Below, one piece after another: positions 6,579 to 34,133 of a stretch of DNA of 34,133 nt. Every line of letters begins with the position of its first letter. The stretch's first letter is position 1. The notes under the pieces were generated by a model. It was given only the letters and a program-made list of their open reading frames with translations. It was not told the origin of the DNA and made no database searches. Position numbers and translations under genes: made by a program. Source of the DNA: Methanosarcina sp. Ant1 (GTDB lineage Archaea > Halobacteriota > Methanosarcinia > Methanosarcinales > Methanosarcinaceae); assembly GCA_001714685.2 (NCBI GenBank), contig MDTP02000068.1:1-34133 (forward strand), read 5' to 3'.

Positions 6579-7206
6579 GCAGAAAGTTAAAAGAAAAACG
6601 TATCCTCTTCAAATTAAGTGGAATTGCGGCAGGAAAGGCAAGTAAGCTATGTTGATCAATGAAAATTAATCGATTCTTGTCGAAATGAAAGAAATATTGA
6701 AATGGGATATTACCCAATTGTAAAACTCAAAATGGTTTTAAGACAGCCTGAGAGAACAGATTTTAGTTTAATCAGGACAGGAGAACCTCTTGACAAAACC
6801 GGGGCTTTTGCTGTTCAGGGGAAATGGGCAGCGCTCGTGAAAAGATCGAAGGAGACTTCTTTAACTTGATTGGACTTCTTCTTTTTCGGCTGGGAAAAAT
6901 TATGGAAAGGTTTGGAATACCTGTTTTTGAGGGAGGGTTTTCCTGATTTTTCTTCCTTACACTTGAGTCTTCAGGTGCTGTTCTCCATGAAGGATGCTGA
7001 GAGCTACAAAAGCAATAAGGCAATTAGGGGCAATAAGATAATTAGGGTAATTAGGGGCAATAAGACAATTAGGGTAATTAGGGGCAATAAAACAATTTTG
7101 CTGATTAATAGCGGACAAAATTTTTTATTGATTAACAGAAGCAATTGTGTTCAACTGTACTTTCTGTGGATGTTTTCAGACATTTTAATAATAAGAGGCG
7201 TTTCAG
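6579..7206 (+). other. Long intergenic region between mobA and cysS
   Basis: About 630 bases without a credible gene. Frames present in this stretch have no recognisable domain. The notable content is the GGGGCAATAA-type repeat at 7012-7096. The cysS promoter must lie here; an AGGCG element 10 bases before the cysS ATG is its probable ribosome binding site. Confidence 0.5.
7012..7096 (+). repeat. Tandem repeat upstream of cysS
   Basis: AATTAGGGGCAATAAGA and AATTAGGGTAATTAGGGG-type units alternate with a period near 30 bases for about three copies, with smaller internal repeats of AATTAGGG. It lies in the probable cysS leader, so copy number could affect expression, but nothing in the sequence shows that it does. 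Confidence 0.7.
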
Positions 7207-10313: not shown

Positions 10314-11762
10314 TTAGACTAAAAACTGACATACTTCCCACGCAAACTGTGGAGAAGTTTCTTCTCTGGTTGTACGTTTACTGAAAAGGGTACGGTCCAG
10401 GACAAGTCGAGGGGTATCAGTGCTCCCTTTCCCTGCATCTCTTTCTGCAGAGAATTGACCGCTGCCTTTAGGCGTCAACGCAATATTAAAGGCGGCGTTG
10501 ACATCGGCATGGTCAACGTGCCCGCAATGAGGGCACTCAAATTGCTTACAGTGTCGGTTGCCTCTATGTCCGCAGCGACTGCACTTTTTGCTAGTCGCAT
10601 GGGGATCAATATAAGCTACCTCTACCCCCCGCAACCTGGCCTTGTATTCAATAAATTGCTGGAGTTGATGAAAAGACCAGTTGTTCAGGGAGTATTCACA
10701 TGACCATAATTGTTTTTCGGCTTTGCTTTTAGTTTTGATGGAGTTTTTGTTAATTTCTTTATTTCTGCTTTTGTCTCCTTTTTGTTCCCTTTTTTTGTCT
10801 TCGCTTTTATTTTTCTCGTTTTCTCCTGCACCTCCAATCTTGCTGTTGAGTTTTCGGATGCCTTTAAGGTTTTCGAGTTTGATCCCGCACCCATTATACA
10901 GGGCTACATCCACAATCTTTCGGCTGATTTTATGGTTCAAGTCCTTTACAATATTCTTTTCCCTAATTTCTACAGCTTTTAGTTGTTTACGTTTGCCCAT
11001 ATTATAGAGCCGTTTTTTTATGTTCTCGTATTTTTTATGCGTATGGTAGCGCATTTTTCCTAACTTCCAAATTTTACCGGACTCGGGGTTTGCTACAACT
11101 GCAATATGTCCCCTGGTATTGCGGTCAACTCCTATATAGCGCCCGGAAATTTCGGGTTCTTCTTCAGGGAAGACAACTGCTACATAAACATAGAAGCTAT
11201 CGATTTCTATCTGGGAGATTTTTTTAAAGTTATTGGAAAAATGATAGTTAAGCAGAAGTTTCAGGCAAGGGATCATAAGGGTTCTCTCCTTCCTGTCGAC
11301 ACTGACCGCCCGAGAAGGTATGATCAATTTTACATTCTTTGCGGCTCTGAGGTCCTGGTTTCTAGAATATTTCCTGAGAATCTGGCCGGAAATAGTTGAC
11401 TTCAAGCCTATATGCTTGACATCCCCTGGAGAAAGAGGTCCAGACATTGGAAACGAATCAGGTACGGAAAGAGCATCTGGAGACTGAGGGACAGAAGAAG
11501 TAGTTGGAAGCTCGTGAGAAAACCCAGAAAAAGAAGCCGAGAACGAGGATGAAAACGAAGAAGGGGGAGAAGGAAGAGAAGGAAGAGAAGGAAGAGGAAA
11601 AACAGGGAAATGAGGGTCAGAAGAGATAGGTTTTTGTATGGGAGGCGGGTTAAGGCCTCGGTTTTGAGTCTGATGTTTGATACAAAACTCAACAACCTTT
11701 CGAGCCTTTCGAAGTTCCTCCGAAAAATCCCGATTGTGTTTGATTTTATAGGTAAGTAGCAT
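10314..11762 (-). CDS. tnpB: TnpB (IS200/IS605-type RNA-guided nuclease) with low-complexity insertions
   Basis: TnpB proteins are RNA-guided DNA nucleases carried by IS200/IS605 elements and are related to Cas12. The RuvC-like active site appears complete: D213 in GVDRNTRG, E297 in IKLENLKGIR and D420 in DHADVNAA. The zinc finger has C394-x2-C397 and C410-x2-C413. At 482 residues it is longer than usual, because of two insertions. Residues about 40-112 are Pro/Ser/Phe-rich with PSLPSLPSPP-type repeats, and residues about 310-348 are Lys/Glu/Asn-rich. Both are encoded by purine- or pyrimidine-rich microrepeats, so they probably arose by slippage. No TnpA transposase is nearby, so the element could move only if helped. 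The ATG at 11760-11762 follows GGAG. Confidence 0.9.
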   Translation of the reverse strand: MLLTYKIKHNRDFSEELRKARKVVEFCIKHQTQNRGLNPPPIQKPISSDPHFPVFPLPSLPSLPSPPSSFSSSFSASFSGFSHELPTTSSVPQSPDALSVPDSFPMSGPLSPGDVKHIGLKSTISGQILRKYSRNQDLRAAKNVKLIIPSRAVSVDRKERTLMIPCLKLLLNYHFSNNFKKISQIEIDSFYVYVAVVFPEEEPEISGRYIGVDRNTRGHIAVVANPESGKIWKLGKMRYHTHKKYENIKKRLYNMGKRKQLKAVEIREKNIVKDLNHKISRKIVDVALYNGCGIKLENLKGIRKLNSKIGGAGENEKNKSEDKKREQKGDKSRNKEINKNSIKTKSKAEKQLWSCEYSLNNWSFHQLQQFIEYKARLRGVEVAYIDPHATSKKCSRCGHRGNRHCKQFECPHCGHVDHADVNAAFNIALTPKGSGQFSAERDAGKGSTDTPRLVLDRTLFSKRTTREETSPQFAWEVCQFLV

Positions 11763-12410
11763 CCGGGTTATTGCTCCACGGTCAATCTTCGTTATATTTT
11801 TTTAAAATATAAATATTCAGGAGAAAACCTATGGATTAAATTCAATTTCTATATACATAATTGCCATAAAGATATTTAAGCATTTTGTCAAAGTATGTAA
11901 ATAGGGATTTTTACGACAAAAAAGTACCCCAAGAATTAACTTTAAAGACAATACTAAATCGGTGAATAAATAATATTCAATGAGGGCCTCTGCTGCTTGT
12001 ATTAATTTTGGAACTTTCCTGAAATAAAAAAGCCCTGGGTTTTACCATCCATTTTTTATGCAAGAAGAACCTTAAGGTTTTAAACTGATCTTAAACTGAT
12101 CTTAAACTGATCTTAAACTGATCTTAAACTGACCTTAAACTGATCTTAAACTGATCTTAACTGACCTTAAACTGACCTTAAACTGATCTTAACTGACCTT
12201 AAACTGATCTTAACTGACCTTAAACTGATCTTAAACTGACCTTAAACTGACCTTAAACTGACCTTAAACTGACCTTAAACTGATCTTAACTGACCTTAAC
12301 AGTTACTTATAATCCGTTGCTAAACCCTTTACGTAATCCTTTTGCATAACCTTTTTTCATTACAGTTACCAAAACTTTCCCAGCTACCGGAAGAGAACAC
12401 ATGATCTAAT
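11763..12410. other. Intergenic region between tnpB and the U32 gene
   Basis: No gene is supported. A TATA-like AT run at about 11792-11814 probably serves tnpB on the minus strand. The right half is filled by the 11-bp tandem array at 12080-12295. The promoter of the U32 gene should lie in the last 100 bases, but no strong TATA box or ribosome binding site stands out. Confidence 0.45.
12080..12295 (+). repeat. 20-copy tandem array of TTAAACTGAYC
   Basis: Sixteen 11-base units (TTAAACTGATC or TTAAACTGACC) and four 10-base units (TTAACTGACC) follow one another without a break for 216 bases. The TC/CC variants and the 10-base units are interspersed, which fits repeated slippage and unequal exchange. 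There are no spacers, so it is not a CRISPR array. It ends 115 bases before the U32 start. Confidence 0.95.
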
Positions 12411-20711: not shown

Positions 20712-21374
20712 GTGGGAAAGGAAGTGATTCATACGGATTTTGCTGCCTGGGAACCTATTTACGAAAGAATTCTTGAAGATTTCGGGTTCGACCGTGCAGG
20801 TGATGAAGAAGCAGCCCGATTCCTCTCCCGCATGCTGACAGAGAAAAACACTGTCAGCCTCTCTGAACTTAAAATTGCAATTTCCGGAAAGCCTGCCCTG
20901 GTCTGCGGAAACGCCCCAAATCTCAGGAAAGAGCTTTCGGAAATCGATCTTTCTGCTTTTGTGATAATTGCAGCCGATGGAGCAGCCGCTGTACTGATGG
21001 ATATTGGCTGCGTGCCTGAAGTCATCTGTACCGACCTTGACGGCAATTCAGAAGCTGACATTGAAAAAGAGATCCTCGCCTGCGAACGGGACTCTATAGT
21101 CCTGATCCATGCCCACGGGGACAATATCGATAAGCTTGAAAAATACGTGCCCCGTTTCAAGTGCTTTATTGCAACTACTCAGGCAAGGCCTTTTGACAAA
21201 GTGTACAATTTCGGCGGATTTAGCGATGGAGACAGGTGTGTTTTTGTAGCCAGGGAATTTGGAGCTAAAAAAATCAGGCTTGCTGGATTTGATTTTGAAG
21301 ATCCCCATGTGAACCCGATCAAGAAAAAGAAATTGAAGTGGGCGAAGGAATTAATCGGGATATTGGGCATTTGA
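20712..21374 (+). CDS. mptE: 6-hydroxymethyl-7,8-dihydropterin pyrophosphokinase MptE
   Basis: This DUF115-family enzyme activates the pterin alcohol with ATP-derived pyrophosphate in tetrahydromethanopterin synthesis (the archaeal route, unrelated to bacterial FolK). The 220-residue protein has the family motifs VCGNAPNL (64-71), AADGAAAVLMDIGCVP, TDLDG (107-111), HAHGDN and NFGGFSDGDRCVF. The ending DPIKKKKLKW-type segment is also typical. The first in-frame start is a GTG at 20712; a second GTG at 20724 has GGGA about six bases upstream and may be the true start. A broken copy of the second half of this gene lies at 22609-23016. Confidence 0.93.
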   Translation: MGKEVIHTDFAAWEPIYERILEDFGFDRAGDEEAARFLSRMLTEKNTVSLSELKIAISGKPALVCGNAPNLRKELSEIDLSAFVIIAADGAAAVLMDIGCVPEVICTDLDGNSEADIEKEILACERDSIVLIHAHGDNIDKLEKYVPRFKCFIATTQARPFDKVYNFGGFSDGDRCVFVAREFGAKKIRLAGFDFEDPHVNPIKKKKLKWAKELIGILGI

Positions 21375-22037
21375 AGGCTAAAGACCCCTATTCATGGTAA
21401 TTCATGTTTAATGAGTTGATAATTCCTCTAATTTTTTCTCCATGTAATTAATATAGAACTTGCTTACCGAGTAATCGCCTTCAGATTAAATAAACTAATT
21501 TAGATAAAAATTGATTAAGTTATGTAGTATATATATAAAGAGAGTTATAAATGTTTTTCAACAAAATAAGTGGCTTTTAAGGCTTTTAATTGACTTTAAT
21601 TGAAAATTAGACCTTATTTATGTTGAAAGAATCTTATTTTTTCCTAATTAGTGAATTGCAGATTAAAGTTCCTGATCTTATTGAGATGTATAAAAAAGTA
21701 GGATATGTAAATTAAGTATAGAAGTCAGCGTGTTTTATTGACAGGGGATTACCCAGTTTTTCAAGATCTATTAATAGTAAGGAATAAACATTCTAGTCAT
21801 TTTATATAATGTAGAATTATATATTTGTTTGTACTTTCTGGCAATTAAAATTAAATCTGTTCCTCTCCAAAAGGAAACAAGTAACCAGAATAGCTTTTAA
21901 AATAATTGCCATGAGTAAAATACAGACTTGCGGAGTTGATGAAGAGTTTGATTAGAGAATTACACACTCTAATCTCATCTCCTCCAATATGCAAAATGAG
22001 TGTGGGAAGAATACAGTAAATCATGGAGGTAAATATA
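21375..22037 (+). promoter_or_regulatory. Unit 1 leader of the Gly/Cys-rich peptide array
   Basis: Homologous to the leaders of units 2 and 3 from about 21452 onward. It has a TATA box (TTTATATAAT, 21801-21810), a conserved TCTGTTCCTCTCCAAA block, and a stem-loop in which GATGA (21938-21942) pairs with TCATC (21975-21979) and GATTAGAG (21950-21957) pairs with CTCTAATC (21967-21974). TCATGGAGGT is the ribosome binding site. A degenerate relic of the 65-codon frame seen in unit 2 lies near 21555-21713 and ends in SELQIKVPDL...GYVN. Confidence 0.6.
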
Positions 22038-22196
22038 ATGAGTGGAAATTTTTTTAATTTCGGACGTAGACATGACTTCGGCGGATTCTATGGCGGTAGA
22101 TGTGGCGGTTTTGACGGTGGCTGTGGCTGTGGCGGACGCAGGTGGGACAGATGCCGTAGCTGGTTGGGCCGTTGTGGCCGCGGCTGGTGTGATTAA
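22038..22196 (+). CDS. Gly/Cys/Trp-rich micropeptide 1 (52 residues)
   Basis: The first of three related tiny genes. The 52-residue product is about one-third glycine, has six cysteines (C22, C29, C31, C39, C46, C51), three tryptophans and ten arginines, and no lysine. It shares the core G-C-G-C-G with the two other peptides. There is no signal peptide or membrane segment. GGAGGT lies nine bases before the ATG, in a context (CATGGAGG...ATG) that is almost the same in all three. The cysteines suggest metal or redox binding, but the function is unknown. It might also be a precursor that is modified, although no modifying enzyme is encoded nearby. Confidence 0.7.
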   Translation: MSGNFFNFGRRHDFGGFYGGRCGGFDGGCGCGGRRWDRCRSWLGRCGRGWCD

Positions 22197-22608
22197 TAAC
22201 TACTGAGCCTGAAAGAATTTTATTAAGTATTAAATGAAATAGCATCATAGCCATCTTTTCAAGGTAGGACGGACAAATTTCTGATAAATCTTCTTATCTT
22301 GAATTGGTGACTATTTATTTTTATTTTCCTATGAGTTACCAACTATATTTCTCGTGTTTTATAATGACTAATTGCTATGATAAAGATCTTATCATAAAAT
22401 CATATGAGAAAGAGAGAAAACTTCTCTGATTAAACTTGCACCTGAAGAGTATCAGCAGCTAGTACATCGATTCCAATGTATGTCACAAACGAAATCTTTG
22501 AATTTAGATAAAGAAGGATTAGTTATACATACTTGATAACTTCTTTTTTGATAACTTCTTTTTTGATAACTTCTTTTTTGATAACTTCTTTTTTGATAAC
22601 TTCTTTTT
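22197..22608 (+). other. Spacer after micropeptide 1
   Basis: It contains the 3' stem-loop of unit 1: ATAGCCATC (22247-22255) pairs with GGTGACTAT (22306-22314), with CAAG/CTTG inside. A frame at about 22423-22533 reads LIKLAPEEYQQLVHRF and ends in a stop; it looks like a protein fragment but I recognise no family. The end is filled by a 15-bp repeat. Confidence 0.4.
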
Positions 22609-22611
22609 TGA
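22536..22611 (+). repeat. 15-bp tandem repeat at the edge of the mptE copy
   Basis: ATAACTTCTTTTTTG is repeated five times without interruption and then runs into ATAATTGCAG. In intact mptE the matching place reads TTTTGTGATAATTGCAG, so the array appears to have grown by slippage from the break point of the duplicated gene. Confidence 0.85.
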
Positions 22612-23016
22612 TAATTGCAGACGACGGAACAGCCGCTGCCCTGATGGATACTGGTCGCGAGCCTGAAGTCATCTGTACCGACCCTGAAGGCAATTCATAA
22701 GCTGTTATTGAAAAAGAGATCCTGGCCTGCGAACTGGGCTCTATGTCCTGATCCATGCCCACGGGGACAATATCGATAAGCTGAAAAATACGTGCCCCAT
22801 TCAAACGCTTTATTGCAACTACTCAGGCAAGGTCTTTTGAAAAATGTACAATTTCGGCAGATTCAGTGATGGAGACAGATGTGTTTTTGTAGCCAGGAAG
22901 CTTGGAGCTTACAGTATCAAGCTGGCATGATTTTATTTTGAAGATCCCGATGTGAACCCGATCAAGAAAAAGAAGTTGAAGTGGGCAAAGAAATTGATGG
23001 GGATTCTAGAGTTTTA
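22609..23016 (+). pseudogene. Broken tandem copy of the mptE 3' half
   Basis: This stretch is closely similar in DNA to mptE from about 20965 to its stop codon. It reads IIADDGTAAALMDTG, then EPEVICTDPEGNS followed by a stop. Several single-base deletions and another stop occur before the KKKKLKWAKKLMGIL-type end. The first half of the gene is missing. It cannot make MptE. It shows that the neighbouring peptide unit was duplicated together with the end of mptE. Confidence 0.92.
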
Positions 23017-23095
23017 AAGGCAATATATGCATATTAAAAGAAATATAAGTATAATTTATAGACATTTATTCGTATTTTTATTCGTTGGCTGAATC

Positions 23096-23692
23096 GAGAA
23101 ACTTGATTGTTGAATACTCGTCCTTTATAAGGACATTTTGCCTTGAAAGAAAAAGACTTAAGTGATGATGTTTAGAAATAGAAAAAGTTATATAACTTTT
23201 TCAACTAAATGCGTGTTTTTAGAGGCCTTAAATTGGATTTTGTTAGAAAATAGAGCTTATAAATGCTATAGGGGTTATATTTTTTGCTTAAATAGTGAGT
23301 TGCAGACTTTTATTCCGGATTTATTGAGAGATTTAAAAGAATTAGGATTTGTAGATTAAATGTAAAAGTAAGTTTGTTTTACTGACAGACAGTTTACTCA
23401 CTTTTTCAAAGACTATTAATATTAAGGAAAAGTTATTCTAGGTCTTTTATATAATTTGCAATTATATATTTAATTGTATTTTCATGGAAATCAAATCTGT
23501 TCCTCTCCAAACGAAAATAAGTAGCCGGAATAATTTCTAAAAATAGCTGCCATGAGAGTACAGGGTGAACGAAGAGTTTGGAGATTACAAACTCAGTTCA
23601 CCTTCTTCATGCATAAAAAATAATAAGAGTATAAAAAATAATAAACCAATAATAAGAGTATAAAAAAATAATAAACCATGGAGGAAAATATT
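23096..23692 (+). promoter_or_regulatory. Unit 2 leader of the Gly/Cys-rich peptide array
   Basis: Homologous to the unit 1 and 3 leaders. The TATA box is TTATATA at 23447-23453, and the CTGTTCCTCTCCAAA block follows. The stem-loop is kept but with different bases: GGTGAAC (23564-23570) pairs with GTTCACC (23596-23602), and AGTTTG (23575-23580) pairs with CAAACT (23588-23593). A short ATAATAAGAGTATAAAAA repeat (about 23620-23680) and CATGGAGG precede the start. Confidence 0.6.
23162..23359 (+). CDS. Possible 65-residue protein inside the unit 2 leader
   Basis: An uninterrupted frame in unit 2 whose counterparts in units 1 and 3 are broken by stops. Its end (SELQTFIPDLLRDLKELGFVD) matches the unit 1 relic SELQIKVPDL...GYVN in length and at several residues, and some of those residues are kept through different codons, which suggests a coding past. 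No ribosome binding site or family is recognised. It is upstream of the proposed TATA box of the micropeptide. It is as likely to be a relic as a working gene. Confidence 0.3.
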   Translation: MMMFRNRKSYITFSTKCVFLEALNWILLENRAYKCYRGYIFCLNSELQTFIPDLLRDLKELGFVD

Positions 23693-23779
23693 ATGTGGGG
23701 ATGTAATCGGTGTAACTGGGGCTGTGGCAGAGACCGCTGGTGGGGTCGTGGCTGTGGCTGCGGATGGGGCAGGTGGTAA
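23693..23779 (+). CDS. Gly/Cys/Trp-rich micropeptide 2 (28 residues)
   Basis: The smallest of the three related genes. The 28-residue product has six tryptophans (2, 9, 16, 17, 25, 28), five cysteines (4, 7, 11, 21, 23), eight glycines, and arginine as its only basic residue. It shares G-C-G-C-G (20-24) with the other two. GGAGG lies ten bases before the ATG. So many Trp and Cys codons in so short a frame are improbable by chance, and the surrounding leader is conserved. The function is unknown. A conserved hairpin follows the stop codon. Confidence 0.65.
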   Translation: MWGCNRCNWGCGRDRWWGRGCGCGWGRW

Positions 23780-24035
23780 GAAAATAACCGAGCCTCAGGA
23801 CTACTCAGTATGAAATGAAACAGAATAATAGTCATCTTTTCAAGGCTAGGAAGACAATTTCGGATGGATTGTCTCGTCTTGAATTGATGGCTATATATTT
23901 TATTTCATAGGAGTTTGCAACTATACCCCTCATGTGTTTTAAGGCGAAAGATTTCTATTCAGGGTATTTCGGTGCAGCGCATTGGCAAGTCTCAAATTTG
24001 ATTCATAGGCGGTTTAATTCATAGGCAGAATAGAA
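23780..24035 (+). other. 3' region of unit 2 with conserved stem-loop
   Basis: ATAGTCATC (23828-23836) pairs with GATGGCTAT (23886-23894), TTCAAG (23839-23844) with CTTGAA (23878-23883), and GACAAT (23853-23858) with ATTGTC (23868-23873). The same architecture is found after micropeptide 1. It may be a terminator-like 3' end or a separate small RNA. The rest is spacer with a short TTCATAGGCGG/TTCATAGGCAG repeat near 24000-24023. Confidence 0.45.
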
Positions 24036-24672
24036 AACTTGCTTATCGAATATAGCCTTTTATAGGAATAATTTACTTGCGAAGAAAAAGGCGTAAGTAA
24101 CGATATTTAGAAATAGAAAGAGTAGTACAATTTTTTCAGCTAAATGCATGTATTTTGAGTCTCCAAATCGGCTCTAATTAGAAAAGAGAGCATATATCTA
24201 CTTTAGAAGCCTTATTTTTGCCTAAATATTAAATTGCAGACTAAAACTCCTGATTATAGCGAGCGATTTAAAAAAATGGAATTTTTACATTAAATATAAA
24301 AGTAAGCTTGTTTTTTTTAGCGTAGGATTATTCAGTTTTTCAATGACTATTAATATCAGGAGCCGTTATTCTAGTGATCTTATATATTTTAAAATTATAT
24401 ATTTAATTGTACATTCGGGCAATTAAAATCAAATTAGAATTAAATCTGATCCTCTCCAAACAAAAAGAGGTAAACAAAATAATTTTTAAAAATAATTGCT
24501 AGAATATAATACAGAATAGGGAGGGTTGATGAAGAATTTGATTAGAGAATTTTGTACACTCTAATCTTAAAAAGTTCATCTTCTCATATGTAAAAAGAGT
24601 GTGAAAAAATACATAAAAAAACGAATATGAAAAGATATTAGAAGAATAAAGTAAACCATGGAGGTAATTATA
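24036..24672 (+). promoter_or_regulatory. Unit 3 leader of the Gly/Cys-rich peptide array
   Basis: The third copy of the leader. The TATA box is TTATATAT at 24380-24387. The CTGATCCTCTCCAAA block is kept. The stem-loop is GATGAA (24528-24533) with TTCATC (24575-24580) and GATTAGAG (24540-24547) with CTCTAATC (24559-24566). CATGGAGGT is the ribosome binding site. The relic of the 65-codon frame (about 24106-24291) has internal stops. Confidence 0.6.
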
Positions 24673-32416: not shown

Positions 32417-32504
32417 GCGAGGGTTGCCCAGCCAGGTCAAAGGCGATAGGTTGAGGGCCTATTCTTGTAGGAGTTCGTGGGTTCGAATCCCATCCCTCGC
32501 ACCA
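32417..32504 (+). tRNA. tRNA-Leu(GAG), copy 1, CCA encoded
   Basis: The acceptor stem GCGAGGG pairs with CCCTCGC, followed by discriminator A and an encoded CCA. The anticodon arm is ATAGG-TTGAGGG-CCTAT with anticodon GAG. A long variable arm and GGGTTCGAATCCC T arm are present. It differs from copy 2 only by a compensated base pair in the anticodon stem and by the CCA. Confidence 0.97.
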
Positions 32505-32597: not shown

Positions 32598-32682
32598 GCG
32601 AGGGTTGCCCAGCCAGGTCAAAGGCGCTAGGTTGAGGGCCTAGTCTTGTAGGAGTTCGTGGGTTCGAATCCCATCCCTCGCA
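32598..32682 (+). tRNA. tRNA-Leu(GAG), copy 2
   Basis: Identical to copy 1 except that the anticodon stem is CTAGG/CCTAG rather than ATAGG/CCTAT, and CCA is not encoded (the discriminator A is followed by CTC). It lies 93 bases after copy 1, with a weak TATA-like TTACTATAT before it; the two may also be read as one transcript. Confidence 0.97.
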
Positions 32683-32768
32683 CTCTTCTTTGGGGTAATA
32701 GGTATCTCGATTTTTTTGTACGCTAATGCAGATTTCATGCACAACCGTGTTTTTCCAAAAGTTATCTT

Positions 32769-32903: not shown

Positions 32904-33008
32904 ATATAAAAATAAACAGATCACATAATATATATAGAAGCTCTAAATCAATGCTACGAATAGTGCTCATGAATATCTAATCGTGTTACATTTTTCGCTT
33001 CATTAATC

Positions 33009-33168
33009 GAGAGCGTCGTAAAAGTCTATTTGATTCTACAAATAGGATAAATTGATCCTTAATAAGGTAGCAATTGCCTGAATTTAATGTAAAAATTTTA
33101 TATCCATATTTAAAGTCAACGTTCAGATTATCCAATTGTAGAATTGCTTTGACTTTTACGACGCTCTC
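33009..33168 (+). mobile_element. 160-bp MITE, copy 1
   Basis: It begins GAGAGCGTCGTAAAAGTC and ends with the exact reverse complement of these 18 bases; the similarity continues after a short mismatch into ATTCTACAA. TAATC is duplicated on both sides (33004-33008 and 33169-33173). There is no gene inside. The copy 2 sequence differs at about five positions. A transposase of the parent IS must lie elsewhere in the genome; 5-6-bp duplications would suit the IS1634 family, but this is only a possibility. Confidence 0.93.
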
Positions 33169-33873
33169 TAATCATGTCGACGCAAAATTTTTTAGTTTCT
33201 AATGCTACTCGAAGACTAAGGACTTCTGGGTTCAATATCATATCATTATTAACACTAATTATTTTATTAAAAACTGATAGCCACGGAATAGCATCTCTAA
33301 TTGTTGGAGCTTTCGGGTGTGAATTATGTATATGGCATCCTTTTATCGATTCGGCAGGTATCAGTTCAATATTATCGATAAAATGATTATTTACATTATT
33401 AAAATAATCATGAGATACTTGTGTATACATCGTCCTAAAATCTACAACGAAGCCGATATACTTCTGATATAATGGGTAATCTTTAATTAGATAATCCCAA
33501 AATTCTTTCATCTGTATGCCATTTGATATCACATGATCGGTTCTATTTTCAATGAGAATTATTGGCTTTACTTCAAATTCGTCTTTAAAGTTATTAAATA
33601 ATTTAATAGCAGATTCAGCAATATATTGGTATGTATTAGGCTTTTTTCCGGGATGGATTTCTATCATAGTAGGAGGTAATCCCATATGCCTAGAAATATC
33701 GATACTCATCTTTATAAATTGATTTACCCATTGTTCATTATACCATTTTAAATTGCATTTAGAGTCTAAAGCAGGCTCAGTATGAAAAATATATTTTATA
33801 TCTCTTGGAAGTTTATCTTCTTTCAAATACAATTTATTAATGGCTTCTTTATTTAGAAATTCACACTTACTTA

Positions 33874-34033
33874 GAGAGCGTCGCAAAAGTCAAAGAAATT
33901 CTACAATTGGATAATCTGAACGTTGACTTTAAATATGGATATAAAATTTTTACATAAAATTCAGGCAATTGCTACCTTATTAAGGATAAATTTATCCTTT
34001 TTGTAGAATCAAATAGACTTTTACGACGCTCTC
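33874..34033 (-). mobile_element. 160-bp MITE, copy 2 (inverted)
   Basis: The same 160-bp element as copy 1 in the opposite orientation, about 97 percent identical by eye. TACTTA is duplicated on both sides (33868-33873 and 34034-34039). One base in one terminal repeat differs (GCGTCGC instead of GCGTCGT). It interrupts the same TIM-barrel gene near its 5' side. Confidence 0.93.
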
Positions 34034-34133
34034 TACTTAATCCTAAAAACTCGGTTTCATTTTTTTTGACAAAATTAGCAGGTATCTCTACGAAGTCAAA
34101 ACTATATTGTTTTGCTTTTTCCCATCGATTAAG

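Follow-up and report, generated by a model that had tools for sequence, protein, structure and literature searches.

Two IS1182-associated MITE insertions in one gene of Methanosarcina sp. Ant1, and a possible change of ends in the MITE lineage

MITEs are commonly regarded as derived from a single autonomous transposon. A published MITE of Methanosarcina acetivorans, assigned to IS1182/ISMac2, is 160 bp long and occurs in 14 copies, with inverted repeats (IR) of 26 bp and direct repeats (DR) of 4 bp (PMC3852290, Table 4). Other Methanosarcina MITEs, of approximately 250 bp, are associated with IS1634 elements (i.e., ISMba11 and ISMac10), and the sharing of terminal bases alone with the partner IS is usual for archaeal MITEs (PMC3852290).

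The window analyzed here is an entire contig (C68; 34,133 nucleotides) of the 4.29-Mb draft genome of Methanosarcina sp. Ant1, whose relatives are Methanosarcina. One of its genes is interrupted by two copies of a 160-bp element, which is a new IS1182-associated Methanosarcina MITE. The element resembles the ISMac2 MITE in its length, palindromic layout, homologous interior, IS1182-family partner, and genus but differs from it in its ends (GAGAGCGTCGTAAAAGT versus CAGGCTGTCTCAAAA), its target duplications (5 to 6 bp versus 4 bp), and its partner transposase (23% identical). Like the IS1634-associated MITEs, it is multicopy and produces a 6-bp duplication, as in ISMba11, whereas those MITEs are approximately 250 bp long and belong to another transposase family. 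We consider it very probable that the two copies entered the gene independently, with an IS1182-type transposase as the most probable mover and with ends that changed from those of an ancestor shared with the ISMac2-type MITE. As gene loss, the interrupted gene is unremarkable; the change of ends is the interesting part of the case.

Two insertions in one gene

The features of the locus are as follows.
32954-34133, minus strand: interrupted gene, approximately 298 codons when intact (orthologues L188, L189, and L190)
34040-34133, 33174-33873, and 32954-33008, minus strand: pieces of the interrupted gene
33004-33008: target duplication TAATC, left of copy 1, direct repeat
33009-33168, plus strand: MITE copy 1, 160 bp, identical to the copies at C58:15727 and C77:18241
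33169-33173: target duplication TAATC, right of copy 1, direct repeat
33868-33873: target duplication TACTTA, left of copy 2, direct repeat
33874-34033, minus strand: MITE copy 2, 160 bp, identical to C58b, C52, C207a, C183, and C10
34034-34039: target duplication TACTTA, right of copy 2, direct repeat

The earlier note on this DNA had described two near-identical inverted MITEs of 160 bp within one gene, each flanked by a target duplication (5-bp TAATC and 6-bp TACTTA), and both the elements and the exact duplications were found at these positions. The copies lie 699 bp apart in opposite orientations and are 97% identical. Two other copies in the genome have exactly the sequence of copy 1 and five others that of copy 2, so the pair represents separate insertions from two recently active subfamilies. 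Thus, two nonautonomous MITEs of the same family would have entered one nonessential gene independently, each insertion duplicating 5 to 6 AT-rich bases of its target.

Excision of each element together with one duplication yields a single open frame of 282 codons, which runs from the contig edge to the stop codon at 32954-32956; the initial 22 codons or so lie beyond the contig end. The predicted restoration of the frame by removal of the elements thus holds at both joints. MITE-free orthologues were found in Methanosarcina sp. UBA289, UBA5, and MSH10X1. Comparison with uninterrupted orthologues, set beforehand as the test that could refute the reconstruction, showed the rebuilt joints to be collinear at both sites, and the original gene is recoverable, as had been claimed. 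The UBA289 and UBA5 proteins align with the rebuilt protein without gaps at either joint (TEFLGLS|KCEF in the rebuilt protein versus TEFLGLS|VGEF in an orthologue, and KKFCVDMI|NEAK versus KKFCIYMI|NEAK). At the nucleotide level, UBA289 and MSH10X1 share ATGATTAATGAAGCG with the rebuilt gene at the copy 1 joint, where UBA5 has ATGATAAATGAAGCG, and the target site is present once in these orthologues (GATTA in UBA289 and MSH10X1; GATAA in UBA5).

The two insertions differ in their effects. Copy 2 adds 166 bases (160 + 6) after approximately codon 54 of 298; this length is not a multiple of three, so the insertion shifts the frame and destroys the gene. Copy 1 adds 165 bases (160 + 5) in frame, and its only effect is that a short tail takes the place of the last 16 or so residues, a region that varies among the orthologues. 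No family was assigned to the gene by Pfam, NCBIfam, or PDB sequence searches. Its predicted structure, a low-confidence model with a mean pLDDT of 55, has alternating strands and helices, and the Foldseek matches listed (TM scores of 0.30 to 0.43) are xylose/rhamnose isomerases and endonuclease IV-like barrels. Of the earlier designation as an interrupted TIM-barrel gene, the interruption was found as described; a xylose isomerase-like TIM barrel is plausible as a tentative fold, weakly supported by this model and these matches, and our best guess at the function is a sugar isomerase-like or related metal enzyme.

We infer that the interrupted gene is dispensable. It may even have been useless before the first insertion, the MITEs having gathered in neutral DNA rather than having caused the loss. 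Of the 20 empty sites that could be reconstructed genome-wide, the majority lack a long frame spanning the site, and both clear interruptions of a coding frame with known orthologues fall in this same gene. In addition, the MSH10X1 orthologue carries its own frameshift close to the gene end, and 28 of the 31 Methanosarcina genomes searched gave no orthologue match. Prior decay nevertheless appears rather unlikely, because the rebuilt 282 codons are free of any other stop or frameshift, which indicates a gene whose structure was still intact not long ago and damage that looks recent. The spacing of the two copies is not significant on its own (for a pair less than 1 kb apart, chance expectation of 0.15; P = 0.14), whereas four MITE pairs lie within 4 kb of each other across the genome against 0.6 expected (P = 0.003), an excess that suggests regions tolerant of insertion.

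The MITE family and its candidate transposase

The genome-wide search with the 160 bp that the earlier note had proposed returned approximately 26 copies, comprising 24 near-complete copies (82 to 100% identity; E values down to 1e-80) and 2 interrupted ones. Exact target duplications were identified at 19 copies (5 bp at 8 and 6 bp at 11). Together with the sets of identical copies, these duplications bear out the recent activity that had been claimed for the element, and the copies that carry them confirm its exact boundaries. The MITE has terminal inverted repeats of 18 bp with the end sequence GAGAGCGTCGTAAAAGT, and over its full length it folds into a hairpin (z = -7.9). It is noncoding, with no transposase frame in its 160 bp. 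An Rfam search placed no RNA family on the MITE and yielded only two tRNA-Leu genes in the region, and a search of a plasmid collection gave no match. One copy, in C215 (L027 1500-1756), hosts a different MITE with CAGTACTTCACCAACTGGATC ends and a TTAATA duplication, i.e., a nested insertion.

The same note had called for a full-length IS with the same ends, and one such element was recovered. In addition to the MITEs, a pattern search for the MITE end picked up another set of sequences, GAGAGCGTCGTAAAAGTA, located mainly at contig ends. The GAGAGCGTCGTAAAAGTA ends belong to a multicopy element of 1,817 bp (reference copy, C32:2770-4586) encoding a transposase of 507 amino acids, which scores 323 bits against the NCBIfam IS1182 model NF033551 (cutoff, 270 bits). 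The first 17 bases of one IS end are identical to the MITE end, and the right IS end, GATAGAGTCGTAAAAGTA, differs from the MITE at two positions within these 17 shared bases; beyond them, the MITE and the IS have nothing recognizable in common. With regard to the IS1182 family, the partner transposase thus passes the family model, the ends are inverted, and the MITE ends match one IS end, but the MITE has no gene and only 17 bases in common with the IS.

The sole contiguous IS copy, in C32, has mismatched flanks and no duplication, possibly because of assembly collapse. The duplication of the IS was therefore read from pairs of broken ends. Among 16 left and 9 right ends collected, seven pairs match by duplications of 5 to 6 bp; a control with shifted flanks gave a mean of 0.41 and a maximum of 4. 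A homologue of the 1,817-bp IS in genome G014 has the ends GATAGCGTCG and GATAGAGTCG and a 5-bp duplication, ATAAT. Its transposase frame is split in two, and this genome (a single 5.75-Mb contig) contains no MITE with GAGAGCGTCGTAAAAGT ends. Genome G013 carries one full MITE of the GAGAGCGTCGTAAAAGT type and an IS remnant. No other genome was found to hold these MITEs together with an intact IS of the same type.

Based on these sequence comparisons, the MITE is probably mobilized by the 1,817-bp IS. The transposase of this IS1182-family element (C32:2770-4586) is most probably the mover and, supplied in trans, would recognize both 18-bp inverted ends of the MITE.

Kinship with the ISMac2 MITE

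Weaker matches in this genome and its relatives turned out to share the interior of the element but to have other ends. G014 carries 14 MITE copies of 161 to 162 bp with CAGGCTGTCTCAAAA ends, 12 of which are flanked by 4-bp duplications. It also contains a 1,707-bp IS that has these ends as well, is flanked by a 4-bp duplication, and encodes an IS1182 transposase. The G014 MITE appears to be the published ISMac2 MITE, matching it in length, copy number, duplication length, and family only. Its CAGGCTGTCTCAAAA ends and 4-bp duplications are absent from the new-type copies of the Ant1 family, which have GAGAGCGTCGTAAAAGT ends and duplications of 5 to 6 bp. The two types can nevertheless be aligned end to end, and their interiors are 66 to 75% identical (z = 13.6 and 8.4 against dinucleotide shuffles), with a conserved inner stem, ATTCTACAA/TTGTAGAAT. 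The outer 11 bases have CAGGCTGTCTC as their ISMac2-type counterpart, and at end pairs 1, 4, 5, 6, and 10 the two arms changed in concert. In an interior-only tree, which was midpoint rooted and has many weak inner forks, all new-ended copies are monophyletic (98/95), including the G013 copy with a TTATAT duplication.

The element would accordingly descend from an ancestral MITE common to the ISMac2-type MITE, with ends altered to suit a different IS1182-type transposase. A single change of ends, probably together with a change of transposase, seems the simplest reading. Its specific form is put forward tentatively: the MITE lineage may have swapped approximately 11 outer bases at each end and so passed to a distantly related IS1182-type transposase, while keeping its interior and inner stem. 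If so, a transposon parasite would have switched its host enzyme and passed from 4-bp to 5- to 6-bp duplications.

Both MITE types may instead have drifted along with slowly diverging transposases through intermediate ends and with no switch of partner. Intermediate-looking ends on other copies (e.g., GAGGCTGTCTTAAAATT and AGAGCATGTCTTAAAATT; a further intermediate type is AGAGCGTGTCTTAAAATT) agree with such gradual drift. However, duplication length differs between the two types, and the contrast between transposases that are 23% identical and interiors that are 66 to 75% identical suggests a more recent split of the interiors than of the enzymes. Since a noncoding element and a protein change at rates that cannot be compared directly, this contrast is an argument rather than a proof. 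Gradual drift is thus possible but the less likely course compared with a swap of ends. Within a single genus, and even within a single genome, one interior is combined with ends of two types, duplications of two lengths, and a pair of very different transposases. Whether a MITE can outlive its transposase by changing its ends thereby becomes a testable question.

A solitary right half of an ISMac2-type MITE (ACCCAATTGTA...GGTTTTAAGACAGCCTG) also lies in the window, at 6700-6752.

Other candidate movers and further features of the window

Mobilization by a different transposase, e.g., one of the IS1634 or IS5 type, which also make 5- to 6-bp duplications, would have a precedent in Methanosarcina in the ISMba11 MITE (IS1634; DR 6; PMC3852290). 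This seems improbable for the present element. Apart from the MITEs and the IS1182 element, a genome search for the MITE end allowing up to two mismatches returned nothing but a few singletons (C73, C74, and C137; C74 and C137 share approximately 500 bp at 86% identity, and C73 stands alone). Inspection of regions surrounding other DDE transposases in the genome revealed no matching end pair, and no IS1634-type element with the ends of the MITE was found in this genome.

The earlier note had suggested that the two inverted copies could mobilize the piece between them. This suggestion found no support: each copy has its own duplication, the copies come from different subfamilies, and the gene segment between them is present once in the genome. 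A related reading, in which the copies are the ends of a composite transposon that brought in the 700-bp gene segment as a unit, is ruled out at this locus by the two separate duplications, with outer flanks (TAATC and TACTTA) that differ. It is rendered most improbable also by the membership of the copies in different identity classes, by a frame that continues across the two joints and can be aligned with the orthologues to either side of them, and by the single-copy state of the segment.

Several further features of the window were recorded. Two tandem tRNA-Leu(GAG) genes (32417-32504 and 32598-32683; 181 bp apart and 98% identical) lie between an rpoD-like gene and the interrupted gene. 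The region of an mptE-like gene (20712-24491) is partly repeated (approximately 21198-21902, 22600-23542, and 24059-24491), and a 15-bp tandem repeat (22518-22629) adjoins one decayed mptE-like copy. A long tandem array with the 11-bp unit AACTGAYCTTA (12072-12310) is located upstream of a gene encoding 860 amino acids. Finally, a TnpB-like protein with a Cas12f1-like TNB domain (PF07282; 86 bits) is encoded at 10314-11762 and is possibly part of an IS200/IS605-type element.
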